Positions 12,696-20,287 of a DNA stretch of 48,441 nucleotides are shown in pieces. A program made the position numbers and the translations under genes. Every line of letters starts with the position of its first letter. Positions within the stretch are counted from its first letter, which is position 1. Origin of the DNA: Desulfobulbaceae bacterium (GTDB taxonomy: Bacteria > Desulfobacterota > Desulfobulbia > Desulfobulbales > Desulfobulbaceae); contig JAAYIE010000065.1 in NCBI GenBank assembly GCA_012744275.1, positions 1-48,441 of the forward strand, written 5' to 3'. A model generated the notes under the pieces. That model did no database searches, was not told the origin of the DNA, and worked only from the letters and a program-made list of their open reading frames with translations.

Positions 12696-14117
12696 CTAGT
12701 ATTGAATTGTAATACTCGAGAAAGATTTTGCAAGAGAAGGCGCGTGGGCAGGTGTAGTGGAGGGTGACGGGGGAGTCAGCATGGAACAGACAAGCCGATG
12801 CAGGACCAATTCCTCTTTTGCGCCGGAGTCTTTAAGGCGGAGTTCTGCCTCCAGAAGCAATTCCATCCAGGTAACGAGGGCAGACAAGGGCTGCTGAAAG
12901 GCATCCTTAAATTGATTGAACAGGGCATAAGGGTGAGCGGCCAGTTCTTTCTGCCACTCATCGCCTTGCTCCTTAAGCACCGGCAGATAGCGCTGCTGGA
13001 AGGTGTTGAAATTCATTGACGGCGAAAAAGGAAGGCCACAGGTCTCGATCAGGGAGCGGTAGAGCAGGGCGCTGCGCACGTAGTTGCGAAGACTTGCCAT
13101 GACAGCCAGGTGGTAAACGCCGCTGTCCAATAGCCGCTGCAGAATAACGAGCGCTTCGTCAAGCTCTCCCTTGGCAATAGCGCCGGTAAGTTCATAAATA
13201 GCGTCTTGGCGGGTACGACCCACCAGTTCATCAATATCTTCCCGGCTAATCGTTTCCCGTTCTCCTGCGGCTAACATGAGCTTTCTCAGCTCATTGACCA
13301 GTGCCACAGGATGAAAGCCCACGCGTTCAAACAGGATGGAAACCAGGTTCGGCGGCAGTTTTTTCTTTTGTTCGTTGAGCGTTGTGGCAAGCAGTGAGTG
13401 CAGTACCGCCATTTGTGCGTCTTTGGCTTTGCTGCCTGAGCCCTCAGCCACGCTGCAATCAATAATAACCTCGTTTTCCTTCAGATACTTGAAGAGTTTT
13501 TTGCGCTTGTCTACCTCAGCGGCCAGCAGGATCAGCACATTAGCCGGAGGCAGCCCCCTGGTCAGTAAGCTTATCAGTTGATCACCCGTGTCTACACCTG
13601 CAGTTGAAGCTCCTTCCTGTTCCTTTGTGGTGCTTAGATAGGGCGATGTCCAGTTAAGATCATCGCCGGGCTGGGCAAAGTTAAAGTTTTTCTGCCACTG
13701 TGCGGCAGACATGCCATGGAGGATATCTTCTTGCAGCGGCAATCCCGCTGCTCCGATAAAGGCCGACAAGGCCTTGCGAATGTGTTCGTCCTGCGCATTT
13801 GTTCTGGCCTTAAGCACTCGTTCCCACAGGGTTTTGGCACTGTTTTTGGAATACAATAACCTGGTGTTACTTACCCGGTACACCTGCCGTCCGCTCAACA
13901 GGCTGTAACTGCTGATACGGGCAAAGGTTTCATGCACATCTTCTTCATCGCCATCAATGGCATGCAGCACGCCGCCGTCTGCTAGCAGGGCCTCTTCAAT
14001 CCGGGCGGCAGTGCTGCGGCACAGGTAGGATTCACCAAAAAGCAGTACCGCCCTGGGAGGAGACTGATCGAAGGTCTCCAGCAGGACGGGTAGCTGTTGT
14101 GGAACAAACAATGCCAT
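12696..14117 (-). CDS. holA: DNA polymerase III subunit delta
   Basis: The delta subunit opens the beta sliding clamp within the clamp loader. The 473-residue protein is longer than the ~340 residues of E. coli HolA, partly through a low-similarity stretch around residues 145-185. Features typical of the family include the N-terminal RAVLLFGESYLCR nucleotide-fold start, the NVLILLAAEVDKRKKLFKYL segment with the Asp-Lys-Arg sequence, NELRKLMLAAGERETI, and a helical C-terminal domain (LLDSGVYHLAVMASLRNYVR). It begins 12 bp after the large exported-protein gene and ends 51 bp before clpS. The lptE that often precedes holA is not recognised here; the 840-residue gene takes that place. Confidence 0.88.
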   Translation of the reverse strand: MALFVPQQLPVLLETFDQSPPRAVLLFGESYLCRSTAARIEEALLADGGVLHAIDGDEEDVHETFARISSYSLLSGRQVYRVSNTRLLYSKNSAKTLWERVLKARTNAQDEHIRKALSAFIGAAGLPLQEDILHGMSAAQWQKNFNFAQPGDDLNWTSPYLSTTKEQEGASTAGVDTGDQLISLLTRGLPPANVLILLAAEVDKRKKLFKYLKENEVIIDCSVAEGSGSKAKDAQMAVLHSLLATTLNEQKKKLPPNLVSILFERVGFHPVALVNELRKLMLAAGERETISREDIDELVGRTRQDAIYELTGAIAKGELDEALVILQRLLDSGVYHLAVMASLRNYVRSALLYRSLIETCGLPFSPSMNFNTFQQRYLPVLKEQGDEWQKELAAHPYALFNQFKDAFQQPLSALVTWMELLLEAELRLKDSGAKEELVLHRLVCSMLTPPSPSTTPAHAPSLAKSFSSITIQY

Positions 14118-14129
14118 TATTCAGTGTTA

Positions 14130-16652
14130 TCAGTTGCCGTAATTGACTGGACGCACATTTTGATCCTGGGTAGCAGCTTCCAGGTTGGCCTCGTTCCGTG
14201 TGGAACTGCCGCGACCCGTGCCCTGCGGTTGAGTTTCATCCAGTATTTTATGGAGAATGGCGGTAAGCGAACCCGGCTGGAGATAGTCTTGACCTTGGCC
14301 GCTCTCAAAAATATAAGAGGTCTGCTGCGCCACGTTCTTCCAGGAAATGGAACTGGGATTTTTGGCAATGATCTCGCAGAAACTCTTGTTGTAGGGGTCG
14401 TTAATCACGGCAAGGCCTGTGCCGATGGAGGCGAGCAGGTCAACTGAACCTTCAAAGAGCCGGGTGAGGGTGGTATAGACCTTCATACCGCCACAGGAGC
14501 CAAGGCTTAAGAAACGCTGTTTACCGCCAAGGTCTGCCTGGGTAATTTTGCCCTCATCGATCAGCTCGGTGAGCGGTTCGATGATCTGCTCCGAGCGCCA
14601 GTAACTGTGGCCCCGTTGAGCCAGCATTTCATCACCGGAAAGAATAAAACGCCGGAGGAGTTCTTTCTGATGCTCCTTGCCTGAATATACAAATTGGGTG
14701 TTGGTTATGGTTATGCCATTGACGGTTTTGACAAAGCTCACGGCGAAATGGCGGGTGCGCATGGCCTGGAACAGATTCGCTATCGATCCGCTTGCCCAGG
14801 AGCGGATCGATGACTCCAGAGCCGGGGTCATCTGGCTGATGGTGTAGTATTTGGAAGGTACCAGCTTGTAGCCGTTTTTCATCAGCAGACTGGCATTGGA
14901 GGCAAAGGACTGGCGACCATCATCATCAGGATGATACATGGAAAGGGAAGCCATTTTGCCATCCTTTTTCCATTCTGCAAAGGGGGTACTCTGATAGCTG
15001 TCCAGATTCACTGCACCCTGCTGAACCAGCAGGCGGCTGATGAGCAGACGGTCGTTTTGACCCAGCAGCTCCGGGTAAGTTTGCACATAATATTGCAGAA
15101 TAACCCGGATAAGCTTGCTGGAAACCTGATTGCTGCGCTGGGTTTCCCGCACCATCAACTCGAGCAGGTGACTGCGTGCCTCGGGTGTGAGCATCTTCAG
15201 CAGATGCGAGAAGGTAGCGGAAAAAAGCAGAACGGAGTCCGCATCTTTGAAGGCAGAAGTGCCAACCAGATTGAGAATTTCCTTTTGCCGGGCAAAATCC
15301 TTGGGGAAAAAGTCTGTAAGTTTGCCCTTTTGTGCAGTACTGGAAATGAAGTCGGAAACAAAACGGCTTTCCGGGTCAATATCGCGCAGAAAGTTCAGCA
15401 GGTCACCTCCGTTGCGCTTGGCAATGCGGTCTTTCATTACCGGCACGGCAATGTTGCGAAAGGAGGAATCGTAGAGATCACTGCCCTGGGCCATTACCAC
15501 ATACAAGTTGGCGGTGGTCAGATCTTTAGCGGCCTGCACCCGGGCAGCCGAGGTGGCCTGGTTTAAAATGGCCACAGCCTGACCCTGACCGGCATTTGCA
15601 AACTGTGCGCCGAATCGGGAGCGGGTGGTGCCGTCCAGCCGGTTGAACAGTTCCTGCAGTCGCGCCTTGGAAAAACGGTTTAAGGTTGAGGCCGCGAATT
15701 CGTAGCCGTTTTCATCAGTGACCGCGTGCAGGTTGTTAATTTTCCAGAGTGCCTCTTCACCACCGTCGTATAGCCCTTTCAGCAGTACGGATTTCTGGCG
15801 GCCCTGGAGGCGGTCATAGATAATCTCCTGCTGTGATGTGGACAGGGTGAAGTAATTTTTTAGCCAGGAAAGGGCCTCCTGACCCGAAGTTTCCTTGTTT
15901 TTGAACAGGGAACGAGCATTCCATGCATTAACATCATCCATTTTTCGAATGATATCCATGCCCTGCACCATGGTTTGCGGATCCTGGCCCGGAGTTTCAG
16001 CATAGGTAATGAGCGCCTGCACCTGTTTGGCCCGCATTTTGGTAATAATAGGCAATCCTTGCATGGCGGTATCCACCCGCATGCCAGCAACGCCGAAAAA
16101 GGCCCGGGCCGCCTGATTCATAAGGGGGGAGGCTTCGTTGAGACGAGGGATGATTTCAAGGGCCTGATCAGCAGTTGCGCCATACAGGGTAGCAAAGTTG
16201 CGAAAGGTACGGCCCGAGGCAAAGGTAATCGTACTCACTGCATCCAGCGCAGGTAGGGTGTAGTGAACGTTGAAGTTGGGCATGGAGGAAAGAGCCTCAT
16301 ACGAGCGTACCTGCTCATAGGACAGGCGGGTTTGCAGAAGTTTTTCTCCGGTCTGGCGGATCAGGCCGTAATCAGCCCCGGGGGAACTGCACACCTTGCG
16401 AAAGATACGCTGGGCGTTATAGTTCATCCGCCCCACCATGGCGCTGCTCTCCTGGATCTGGGCCGCATCCATTCGGCCGGCCTGCTGGCAGATTGCTATG
16501 GTTTGTTTGCCGCTGATCGCATCCGCATTGTTATTGTTGCTGGCCGCAACAAGCAGTGTCGGAGTGAAAAGAATCGCCAAAGCGAGTAGGCCAATCAGGC
16601 TGGGGAAAAAGAAAAAGAGAGAGTTGGGAAAACGGTTTCTAACTGTGTGCAT
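14130..16652 (-). CDS. Large exported protein with a possible caspase-fold-like C-terminal domain
   Basis: An 840-residue protein of no firmly assigned family. Residues ~11-37 form one hydrophobic segment ending near TPTLLVAAS, a signal peptide or anchor, so the bulk should be periplasmic or extracytoplasmic. Residues ~50-560 are helix-rich with no motif I can name. The C-terminal quarter has RGHSYW (His682) followed 38 residues later by FLSLGSCGGM (Cys720) and then TGLAVINDPY. The order hydrophobic-His-Gly then hydrophobic-Ser-Cys-Gly resembles clan CD cysteine peptidases (caspase/CHAT-like). That role is inference. The gene lies 12 bp upstream of holA and its start overlaps that of a divergent transporter gene, so its promoter must lie in coding sequence. 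Confidence 0.85.
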   Translation of the reverse strand: MHTVRNRFPNSLFFFFPSLIGLLALAILFTPTLLVAASNNNNADAISGKQTIAICQQAGRMDAAQIQESSAMVGRMNYNAQRIFRKVCSSPGADYGLIRQTGEKLLQTRLSYEQVRSYEALSSMPNFNVHYTLPALDAVSTITFASGRTFRNFATLYGATADQALEIIPRLNEASPLMNQAARAFFGVAGMRVDTAMQGLPIITKMRAKQVQALITYAETPGQDPQTMVQGMDIIRKMDDVNAWNARSLFKNKETSGQEALSWLKNYFTLSTSQQEIIYDRLQGRQKSVLLKGLYDGGEEALWKINNLHAVTDENGYEFAASTLNRFSKARLQELFNRLDGTTRSRFGAQFANAGQGQAVAILNQATSAARVQAAKDLTTANLYVVMAQGSDLYDSSFRNIAVPVMKDRIAKRNGGDLLNFLRDIDPESRFVSDFISSTAQKGKLTDFFPKDFARQKEILNLVGTSAFKDADSVLLFSATFSHLLKMLTPEARSHLLELMVRETQRSNQVSSKLIRVILQYYVQTYPELLGQNDRLLISRLLVQQGAVNLDSYQSTPFAEWKKDGKMASLSMYHPDDDGRQSFASNASLLMKNGYKLVPSKYYTISQMTPALESSIRSWASGSIANLFQAMRTRHFAVSFVKTVNGITITNTQFVYSGKEHQKELLRRFILSGDEMLAQRGHSYWRSEQIIEPLTELIDEGKITQADLGGKQRFLSLGSCGGMKVYTTLTRLFEGSVDLLASIGTGLAVINDPYNKSFCEIIAKNPSSISWKNVAQQTSYIFESGQGQDYLQPGSLTAILHKILDETQPQGTGRGSSTRNEANLEAATQDQNVRPVNYGN

Positions 16653-17807: not shown

Positions 17808-18563
17808 ATGAACCAGACTGCGGCAGAGGGTATTGGCAAGAATGGTGGTTATTGCCACCGTTGCCGTTCCTGGCATATACTGCCTTGGAAAGAGGCCTGG
17901 CAGGCCTGCACAGACTTGATGGCCGATTTGCATAGGCATGGTCGCGTTGATCTCATGCAGCCAGAGGAAAAGGCCGATTCACGTTGCTGTACAACTCCAC
18001 TTTTTGCTGCAGGCGCGGGCAAGATGCTGGGCCTTTTACTCGGTCGGGATACGCATGGAAACGAGCAACGCCTACTCGCCTTTTCCGGAATGTACAATGG
18101 TCTGTGGTTGATAGATGGCTGGGTTGAGCCGGTTTTTAACCTGCCGGATTTTTTAGCTCTGCATGGGCCGGCGGAAAAAAAGATCAGCACGCTGGGCGCA
18201 CAACTTGCCAGCCTGCCTCCATCGGCACCGGAACGAAACATGCTGCGGAAGAAAAGACGAGAACTATCCCGGCAGAATATGGCGGCCATTCATGCCCTGT
18301 ACACGCTCCGCAATTTTCGAGGTGAAGAACAATCTTTAACCTCGTTTTTTTCCACAACCTCAGGGCCGCCGTCTGGCACGGGCGATTGCTGTGCGCCCAA
18401 GCTGTTGCATCAGGCTCAGCGCTTGCGCCTGCGTCCTTTCAGTATGGCAGAGTTTTATTGGGGTGGCGGGAATGCTTCGGCCCGTCGCGCACACGGTCAT
18501 CGCTATGCGCCCTGCGCCAGCAAGTGTCAGCCCATTCTTGGTTTTCAGCTCTGCGGTTTGTAA
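17808..18563 (+). CDS. Standalone protein like the N-terminal extension of some RluA pseudouridine synthases
   Basis: A 251-residue cytoplasmic protein. Segments such as GKMLGLLLGRD, LLAFSGMYNGLWLIDGWVEP, TLRNFRGEEQSL, PSGTGDCCAPKLLHQAQRL, FSMAEFYWGG and CASKCQPILG resemble the N-terminal extension found before the catalytic domain in some gammaproteobacterial RluA-type synthases. No catalytic RluA domain (HRLDxxTSG) is present, so pseudouridylation by this protein alone is not expected. Several Cys pairs (16/19, a CC pair, and the C-terminal CxxxC) could bind metal. It starts 22 bp after the DUF2905 gene, probably in the same transcript. Confidence 0.75.
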   Translation: MNQTAAEGIGKNGGYCHRCRSWHILPWKEAWQACTDLMADLHRHGRVDLMQPEEKADSRCCTTPLFAAGAGKMLGLLLGRDTHGNEQRLLAFSGMYNGLWLIDGWVEPVFNLPDFLALHGPAEKKISTLGAQLASLPPSAPERNMLRKKRRELSRQNMAAIHALYTLRNFRGEEQSLTSFFSTTSGPPSGTGDCCAPKLLHQAQRLRLRPFSMAEFYWGGGNASARRAHGHRYAPCASKCQPILGFQLCGL

Positions 18564-18745: not shown

Positions 18746-20287
18746 ATGAATTTTCATCGTAGTTTTTCGATCGCTCTTGCCACTCTGCTCTTTGCCGCGA
18801 CTGCCCAGGCCCAAATCCCTGCCACGCAGGTGATGACCCTCTACCGCTTTAATGGCCCGGTAAATATTCCGTACTACGATGTTGCCGATTTTCGCCTGCA
18901 AGGAGCCGCTACCCCGGCAGGCACTTTGGCTCAGGGTAGCTCCGTGGTGCCATGCCTGGTGATTCAGGACGGTGAGCCACTCACCGACAATCGTGGCGTG
19001 CCCTATGTAGGCTTTTCTGTGATTGTAGATGCACGCACCGCTACCCCGGCTTCCTCCGCGCGTTTTCTCGCTGCCCGTAAAGAACGCAAAGGCTTGCTGG
19101 TACAGAATAACCACTGTTCTGCTGGCGTGCGCTATGTACTTGACGTCAGAAATCTCTATGATATGAGTAAACCACCCTTTTTTGAGCCGCCGCCTGTTGC
19201 TGCTCCGGCGCAGAAAGTGGCTGCTTCCCGCAGTACGGCGGATAACATTGTGCGTGCCTTCCACAATTCCTCATACTGCGCCTTGGCCGCCCGTCAGTTG
19301 ACCAATCGGCGCTCAGCCTTGCAGAGCGCCTGGGACCGGTTCAAACAAGAAAATCGCCAGCATTGGTCACTGGAGCAGCTTGAGCGAGCCCGTCATCTGG
19401 ACTACACTATGCGCACCGCCATTTTCGAGGGGCACCTTGAGCGCGGTTGCAATGCCTACGGAACCTGTGAGCGAAATATTGTTGCCCTGTCCATCCGCAA
19501 CCGTGCCCGTGAATCCTGCCATCAACGCCATGGCTGCGCCACTCTGGGAGACTTTACCGGAGTCAGCAGTGCGGTTTCCCAATACAATATCTGGGATGAA
19601 TATCTCACTCAGATTTCAGGGCTGACTTCCTGTTTCCTTCGTGATGACCTGTCAGGGGCAGACAGCGCCGGTGCTCGCACCCGGCAACGCTATCAACAAT
19701 TGTATGCGCAGAATGTCGTTGATACAGAGCGTATTTTGTACGGTGACGACCACGACCTGCAGGCGATCTTCCCGCATAACACCTTGGCAGAATTAAAGGG
19801 TCTGAAGCACTATTACCATGCGCCAGCCATGGGGAAATGCTTTCCTCAGTATGAGCGGGTTGAGTATATGTCTGGGGCGGTGGCACGGCGGGGCTTGGAT
19901 TTTGCCTTGATCGCGGATACCCGCATCCAGGTTGGTGACAAAGTTGGCAACAGTTATCGTTTCCGCAGTTTCCGCGTGCAAAGCGATCCTCATCGGGATG
20001 AGGTGCGTGTGGTTGACAACTATCCCGGTTTTGTGGTGGATTCCCGCCGTGTTACACTGCAGCCATCCACCCGCTGTGCTCCTTACGGTCTGCCGGCAGG
20101 ATGCAATTTTTCCACGGTTGGACGCTACCGGAAGACACCTTCATGGGTAAACGAAGGACGTCCGCTTGAAGTACGTTGCCGGGTTACCGCCAGGGGAGAA
20201 ACATGCCAAAACCAGCCGACACGGCAAACAACCAGGGTGGGAGGGGTGTGCGATACTGAAATGCAGCCATTTACCGGCGTCAGATAG
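18746..20287 (+). CDS. Exported cysteine-rich protein of unknown function
   Basis: A 513-residue protein with a clear Sec signal peptide (MNFHRSFSIALATLLFAATA, cut after AQA near residue 22). No known domain was recognised. The middle part (residues ~160-300) is rich in Cys, His and Arg, and the C-terminal third (~390-513) is Cys-containing and likely beta-rich. The frame is open from 18668, but AGGAGAGTTGTTC immediately before the ATG at 18746 and the signal peptide fix this start. The even number and spacing of cysteines suggest disulfides in the periplasm. It stands alone between the 18644 palindrome and the arsR-type gene. Confidence 0.85.
   Translation: MNFHRSFSIALATLLFAATAQAQIPATQVMTLYRFNGPVNIPYYDVADFRLQGAATPAGTLAQGSSVVPCLVIQDGEPLTDNRGVPYVGFSVIVDARTATPASSARFLAARKERKGLLVQNNHCSAGVRYVLDVRNLYDMSKPPFFEPPPVAAPAQKVAASRSTADNIVRAFHNSSYCALAARQLTNRRSALQSAWDRFKQENRQHWSLEQLERARHLDYTMRTAIFEGHLERGCNAYGTCERNIVALSIRNRARESCHQRHGCATLGDFTGVSSAVSQYNIWDEYLTQISGLTSCFLRDDLSGADSAGARTRQRYQQLYAQNVVDTERILYGDDHDLQAIFPHNTLAELKGLKHYYHAPAMGKCFPQYERVEYMSGAVARRGLDFALIADTRIQVGDKVGNSYRFRSFRVQSDPHRDEVRVVDNYPGFVVDSRRVTLQPSTRCAPYGLPAGCNFSTVGRYRKTPSWVNEGRPLEVRCRVTARGETCQNQPTRQTTRVGGVCDTEMQPFTGVR

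Follow-up and report, generated by a model that had tools for sequence, protein, structure and literature searches.

Genomic setting of the gene

The window analyzed here, a 48,441-nucleotide stretch of a Desulfobulbaceae contig, contains an open reading frame of 840 codons plus a stop at positions 14130 to 16652 of the minus strand, and its homologues are of similar length. The initial annotation had described an exported 840-residue protein with a His/Cys motif pair here, without giving the strand, and translation of the window bears out the gene and the pair, with His682 encoded at 14607 to 14609 and Cys720 at 14493 to 14495. Codons 1 to 36 (16545 to 16652, minus strand) specify a basic start followed by a hydrophobic segment, which reads as a signal peptide or an N-terminal anchor. 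The gene holA lies 12 bases downstream on the same strand (12696 to 14117) and was identified by PF06144 and PF21694, both above their cut-offs; beyond it, in the same orientation, come clpS (PF02617) and then clpA, recognized by the models Clp_N, AAA_2, and ClpB_D2-small, so the holA-clpS-clpA neighborhood stands as annotated. We regard holA as context, outside the mechanism proposed below. Upstream of the 840-residue frame is a divergent EamA transporter gene. The plus strand of the window also encodes two proteins with no Pfam match, one of 251 residues bearing a CHRC motif close to the N terminus (17808 to 18563) and an exported-looking one of 513 residues with several cysteines (18746 to 20287); frames similar to the former make up a cluster found upstream in 17 loci, which may include spurious frames.

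Of 70 distinct loci (with the copies L031 to L035 counted once), 57 have holA as their co-oriented downstream neighbor, including all 19 loci of family f12, and the 13 loci without an adjoining holA belong to the f3 group (7 loci) and the f1 group (6 loci). At six of these seven f3 loci (L043, L044, L045, L060, L064, and L065), a convergent gene of one cluster is the neighbor, and in the two scanned loci L044 and L045 Pfam identified it as a YkuD-type L,D-transpeptidase. Pfam also recognized RodA upstream in L050 and a glycoside hydrolase family 3 gene beside L047. Such neighbors give thin hints of a connection to the cell envelope. We discounted an operon link to clpS-clpA as a sign of function, given the 13/70 loci without holA and a synteny that shared descent accounts for, since each family group occupies one side of a tree branch (see below). 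The gene had further been thought to take the spot before holA that lptE often occupies; this idea failed, as LptE is encoded elsewhere in the genomes where both positions are known (for example, on the same contig in G001 and G009 and on another contig in G004). An LptE match was obtained in 14/18 genomes, and G000, the genome of the window, gave none.

Occurrence and conservation among relatives

Protein searches detected homologues in 60/95 relatives, 103/192 class-sampled genomes, and 8/297 phylum-sampled genomes, and a profile of the C-terminal domain gave 12/395 matches in the phylum; these sampled sets overlap one another, and the genome of the window is among them. All the matches listed belong to the order of the window's genome and, within it, to three families (codes f1, f12, and f3). 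Beyond the phylum, the search covered plasmids, phages, viral contigs, and a genome-contig scan with the single protein, the last of which matched 26 stretches, five of them relatives (two Desulfobulbus sp. and three with broader names). A viral or mobile origin is unsupported, as no relative appeared in viral contigs, plasmids, or phages. A similar motif may occur in Bacteroidota.

For residue conservation we used an alignment (A1) of 69 rows, the window's protein and 68 homologues with 28 to 83% identity to it, which was drawn from fetched loci rather than from every match and which omits an incomplete locus (L020), the copies of included loci (L031 to L035), and split or broken matches. Both His682 and Cys720 are identical in 69/69 sequences and are separated by 38 residues in every one of them, so neither member of the pair singled out initially, nor its spacing, has been lost in an aligned homologue. 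The entire RGHSYW motif, Gly718, Gly721, Gly744, Gly746, Asn751, and Glu760 are likewise identical in 69/69, as are Asp576 and Asp578, with Asp577 retained in 67/69. Cys720 is the sole invariant cysteine of the protein, the next best being Cys88 (49/69), and a disulfide or a multi-cysteine metal role is unlikely for that reason. In a comparison with the nearest homologue (L002), the C-terminal domain gave dN 0.051 and dS 1.50 and the helical part dN 0.093 and dS 1.15, with dS near saturation. With both residues identical throughout and dN far below dS, we concluded that the motif pair is more than a chance occurrence.

In a tree of the family, each of the three family groups forms one side of a branch, with SH-aLRT values of 100, 98, and 100, although the tree was built by a quick method that issued warnings on several long branches. 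The tree fits vertical inheritance, and the best reading of the distribution is that the gene has been inherited vertically within one order and sometimes lost. At locus L176 of genome G043, the interval between an EamA-like gene (recognized by eye) and holA lacks the gene, and in five further genomes without a gene match (L177 to L181) holA is present with other genes upstream. Since the gene is missing while holA is kept in these six genomes, it is dispensable. Neither the gene nor holA was found in G010, G033, and G098, where the absence may reflect an assembly gap. The loss in G043 looks clean, and that genome measures 2.0 Mb, versus 3.3 to 5.8 Mb in four gene-bearing genomes under the same genus code.

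Domain layout and comparison with known folds

A simple hydropathy rule detected a hydrophobic N-terminal segment in the window's protein and in 67/69 aligned sequences, in agreement with the N-terminal signal or anchor of the initial annotation; by similarly simple rules, A-x-A follows this segment in 36/69 and a lipobox-like pattern occurs in 7/69. Judged from these N termini, export across the inner membrane is likely.

AlphaFold2 modeling of the whole protein on the 69-row alignment gave a pLDDT of 88.9 and a pTM of 0.84. In this model, residues from about 45 to 558 (14979 to 16520, minus strand) are nearly all helical, mostly at a pLDDT above 90, and partly form 32-residue repeats. These are predicted as two-helix units over codons 97 to 288 (15789 to 16364, minus strand) from the helix spacing in the model and from the hydropathy autocorrelation of residues 121 to 300, which amounted to 0.55 for a lag of 32 and to 0.48 for a lag of 64. 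A long helical repeat region ahead of the C-terminal domain, as had been surmised, is thus present in the model. The C-terminal part is a separate alpha/beta domain, also as surmised, but it spans about 250 residues (about 560 to 810; 14223 to 14975, minus strand) rather than some 170, and when modeled alone it reached a pLDDT of 90.2 and a pTM of 0.89.

In the whole-protein model, the domain begins with strand 566-573, a helix, strand 596-600, two helices, a hairpin (637-655), and a helix, and it ends with strand 676-680 running into RGH, a helix, strand 713-717 running into GSC, a helix, strand 737-742, and a helix. In both models, His682, within RGHSYW (14598 to 14615, minus strand), stands directly after strand 676-680, and Cys720, within GSCGG (14487 to 14501, minus strand), stands directly after the successive strand 713-717. 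In clan CD peptidases the dyad sits at the C-terminal ends of strands 3 and 4, according to the available text of a published account (PMC4357240), and the same order, His and then Cys at the ends of strands 3 and 4, is seen in our models with a strand numbering that sets the hairpin aside. By this placement, His682 and Cys720 are candidate catalytic residues of a putative clan CD-like fold, in which two extra helices and the beta hairpin (610-655) precede the His strand.

Foldseek searches of the PDB yielded zero matches at E ≤ 0.001, both for the whole model and for the domain alone, while the viral-model library (BFVD) returned many GTPases. Foldseek's PDB candidates were given a second look with VIA-align, in two comparisons of 50 rows each. 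SAVED-CHAT (8tl0) ranked first in both, at Z 9.0 (165 residues, 3.8 Å) and at Z 8.5 (168 residues, 4.0 Å). By title, clan CD accounted for 4/50 rows in the comparison with 8tl0 at Z 9.0, the others being TPR-CHAT 7y85 (Z 7.8, 146 residues, 3.2 Å), procaspase-3 4jqz (Z 7.3, 156 residues, 3.9 Å), and the C11 peptidase iotapain 6nag (Z 7.0, 190 residues, 6.4 Å), and for 2/50 rows in the comparison with 8tl0 at Z 8.5, namely 8tl0 and gingipain RgpB 4ief (Z 7.0, 186 residues, 4.3 Å). Much of the remainder consisted of GTPases and periplasmic-binding-protein-like folds, among which the GTPase Gtr1p, tied with 8tl0, scored Z 8.4 where 8tl0 had Z 9.0 and Z 8.5 where 8tl0 had Z 8.5. Since rows within 1 Z of each other are tied and models without a clear match typically reach a best Z of 7 to 8, the Z of 9.0 to CHAT is only suggestive of a clan CD fold. 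The histidine of GHG and the cysteine of NAC in 8tl0 are 47 residues apart, as counted from the alignment, versus 38 here; both catalytic residues of 8tl0 probably lie inside its matched range (301 to 505), and the match is compatible with a superposed dyad.

At the level of sequence, no usable family match to the protein was obtained in Pfam, NCBIfam, PADLOC, or PDB sequences. Pfam matches among the domain sequences were dropped as chance, being weak and confined to at most 4/69 members (best E-value 0.0026, in one). The family models for CHAT (PF12770), C14 (PF00656), C25 (PF01364), and C11 (PF03415) did not recognize the protein and were not among the families listed for the 69 domain sequences, and none of the four matched in the window's genome; two single genomes of the family, G046 and G023, have nine and six C14 caspase-family matches, versus none in the window's. 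In addition, the listed literature on caspase, clan CD, CHAT, and separase relatives and on Desulfobulbus proteases contains no description of this protein family in its available text.

Comparison profiles were drawn from 11/14 loci for CHAT, 22/30 for C14, 12/20 for C25, and 9/20 for C11. Full-domain HHalign against them gave at most 0.5% (0.5% for C14 and 0.1% each for CHAT, C25, and C11), which did not exceed the scores of a reversed profile or of unrelated controls, and in this the protein differs from all four families; a profile link to clan CD, a check suggested at the outset, was not obtained. Between the known families, the corresponding values were 94.9% for CHAT-C14, 90.9% for CHAT-C25, 84.7% for C14-C25, 34.5% for CHAT-C11, 14.4% for C14-C11, and 0.4% for C25-C11. 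As accepted clan members can thus score as low as 0.4%, full-domain HHalign neither places the family nor excludes it. A "core" sub-profile, chosen after the full domain had failed, aligned His with His and Cys with Cys for CHAT and C14, though not for C25 or C11, and a longer sub-profile starting earlier ("core2") brought the dyad into register with none of the four. Among 150 column shuffles of "core" with the dyad columns fixed, the register was reproduced in 4 (CHAT) and 5 (C14), and among 150 in which two neighbors on each side were also fixed, in 9 (CHAT) and 24 (C14); the real scores were ordinary, being equaled by 64 to 77 of 150 shuffles. Because shuffles reproduce the register and the real scores are ordinary, the "core" register lends weak support to a clan CD dyad. 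Overall, the possible caspase-fold peptidase domain of the initial annotation keeps its invariant dyad after successive strands and a CHAT protease as the first-ranked structural match, but its fold comparison (clan CD at Z 7.0 to 9.0) is tied with unrelated alpha/beta folds, and neither a significant PDB match in Foldseek nor a profile link accompanies it.

These ties bear on the main rival to a clan CD fold, namely, that the C-terminal part is a common alpha/beta domain of Rossmann-like or GTPase-like type, whose His682 and Cys720 have some other enzymatic or ligand-binding use. Much of the structural lists is taken up by small GTPases and periplasmic-binding-protein folds, with Gtr1p tied at Z 8.5; across all libraries, Foldseek gave a single match at E ≤ 0.001, and this was a viral Ran-like GTPase (BFVD, E 4.7e-4); and the beta hairpin of the model is reminiscent of Ras-like domains. 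The loop after the first strand, however, reads HPDDDGRQS, so that DDDG stands there and the P-loop pattern G-x4-GK-[S/T] does not, and among the domain sequences a P-loop-like pattern occurs anywhere in only 5/69 and an [N/T]KxD pattern in 10/69. Moreover, the invariant residues gather at two strand ends, as they do in clan CD. A canonical P-loop GTPase is excluded by the sequence of the DDDG loop, with Asp576 and Asp578 in 69/69, and we consider the broader rival unlikely, yet serious enough to be kept in view.

Candidate activity, its parallels, and its alternatives

The reading we prefer, with a probability of roughly 60%, is that the protein is an exported protease-like enzyme in which a clan CD-type fold with a His682/Cys720 dyad is carried on a helical scaffold. 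In such an enzyme, the N-terminal signal would export the protein across the inner membrane, His682 would activate the Cys720 thiol, and the thiol would attack the peptide bond that follows a defined P1 residue. This residue would most likely be Arg or Lys, because the acidic loop at Asp576-Asp577-Asp578 (14919 to 14927, minus strand), between strand 566-573 and the next helix, is invariant. The available text of PMC4357240 ascribes P1 specificity in clan CD to the first helix and loop plus two other loops and gives a basic P1 as the commonest preference, and by analogy the DDDG loop may help to form a pocket that accepts Arg or Lys. Like their counterparts in separase and TPR-CHAT, the helical repeats might present or recognize a substrate or a regulator, and our guess is that the substrate would be a cell-envelope protein.

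Among known systems, the CHAT proteases (TPR-CHAT, that is, Csx29 of Craspase, and SAVED-CHAT) are alike in having a helical or sensor part and a His/Cys protease domain, in the same order, and they provide the top-ranked structural match, with His and then Cys each just after a strand in both. They differ in showing no profile similarity to this protein, which for its part has an exported-type N terminus, an extra hairpin before the His strand, and His-Ser in place of His-Gly. In separase (C50), an N-terminal regulatory region, which is helical, precedes a C-terminal caspase-like protease domain; this layout, as published descriptions give it, resembles that of our protein. Separase is eukaryotic and intracellular, in contrast to this bacterial protein of the exported type. 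Gingipain R (C25) and the clostripain-type peptidases (C11) are secreted clan CD cysteine peptidases, represented in the structural comparison by RgpB and iotapain.

Metacaspases and orthocaspases (C14B) have the His/Cys dyad in common with the protein, and in them acidic residues near the first helix probably form the basic-P1 pocket, as we read the available text of PMC4357240. In 46/398 single-domain bacterial metacaspases, the N terminus has a helix that could serve as a signal peptide (PMC3501461, in its available text), and thus the export of a caspase relative is in itself no novelty.

The protein is assigned to no named family and may found a new one in clan CD. In a more specific form, to which we give slightly less than even odds, this would be an exported, solenoid-carried family in which the dyad motif reads Gly-His-Ser...Gly-Ser-Cys-Gly-Gly and the S1 loop is acidic. 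In this order of sulfur-cycle bacteria, it would be the envelope's equivalent of separase or TPR-CHAT and would cleave one envelope protein, or a few, behind a basic residue. If the protease reading is right, a large, vertically inherited protein of one order without a family name in the libraries becomes a testable protease, and the design of separase and Craspase, a helical scaffold with a caspase-like domain, occurs outside the cytoplasm.

The usual histidine motif of clan CD is His-Gly, whereas here His682 is followed by Ser683 and preceded by Gly681 in 69/69. The consistent His-Ser could point to a clan CD-like fold in a pseudo-enzyme, a binding or scaffold protein that retains the dyad for structure, and a precedent exists in bacterial pseudo-orthocaspases, in which Tyr and Ser replace the dyad (PMC6426788, in its available text). 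Those proteins, however, have lost the dyad, while both residues are kept in 69/69 here, and two C25 homologues (L135 and L136) share Gly-His-Ser with this protein and have a later Cys motif, both presumably catalytic, so His-Ser alone need not mean inactivity. We therefore rate a pseudo-enzyme as improbable. A non-peptidase cysteine enzyme of the envelope, such as a cell-wall amidase or transpeptidase, is a very slim prospect: loci without holA can adjoin cell-wall genes (the YkuD-type cluster in 6/7 f3 loci, RodA, and glycoside hydrolase family 3), but the protein has no Pfam cell-wall enzyme or peptidoglycan-binding domain, and the neighbors vary by lineage, with holA downstream in most loci.

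The helical region has an invariant histidine of its own, His309 (69/69), which belongs to a conserved stretch together with Asn306 and Glu318.
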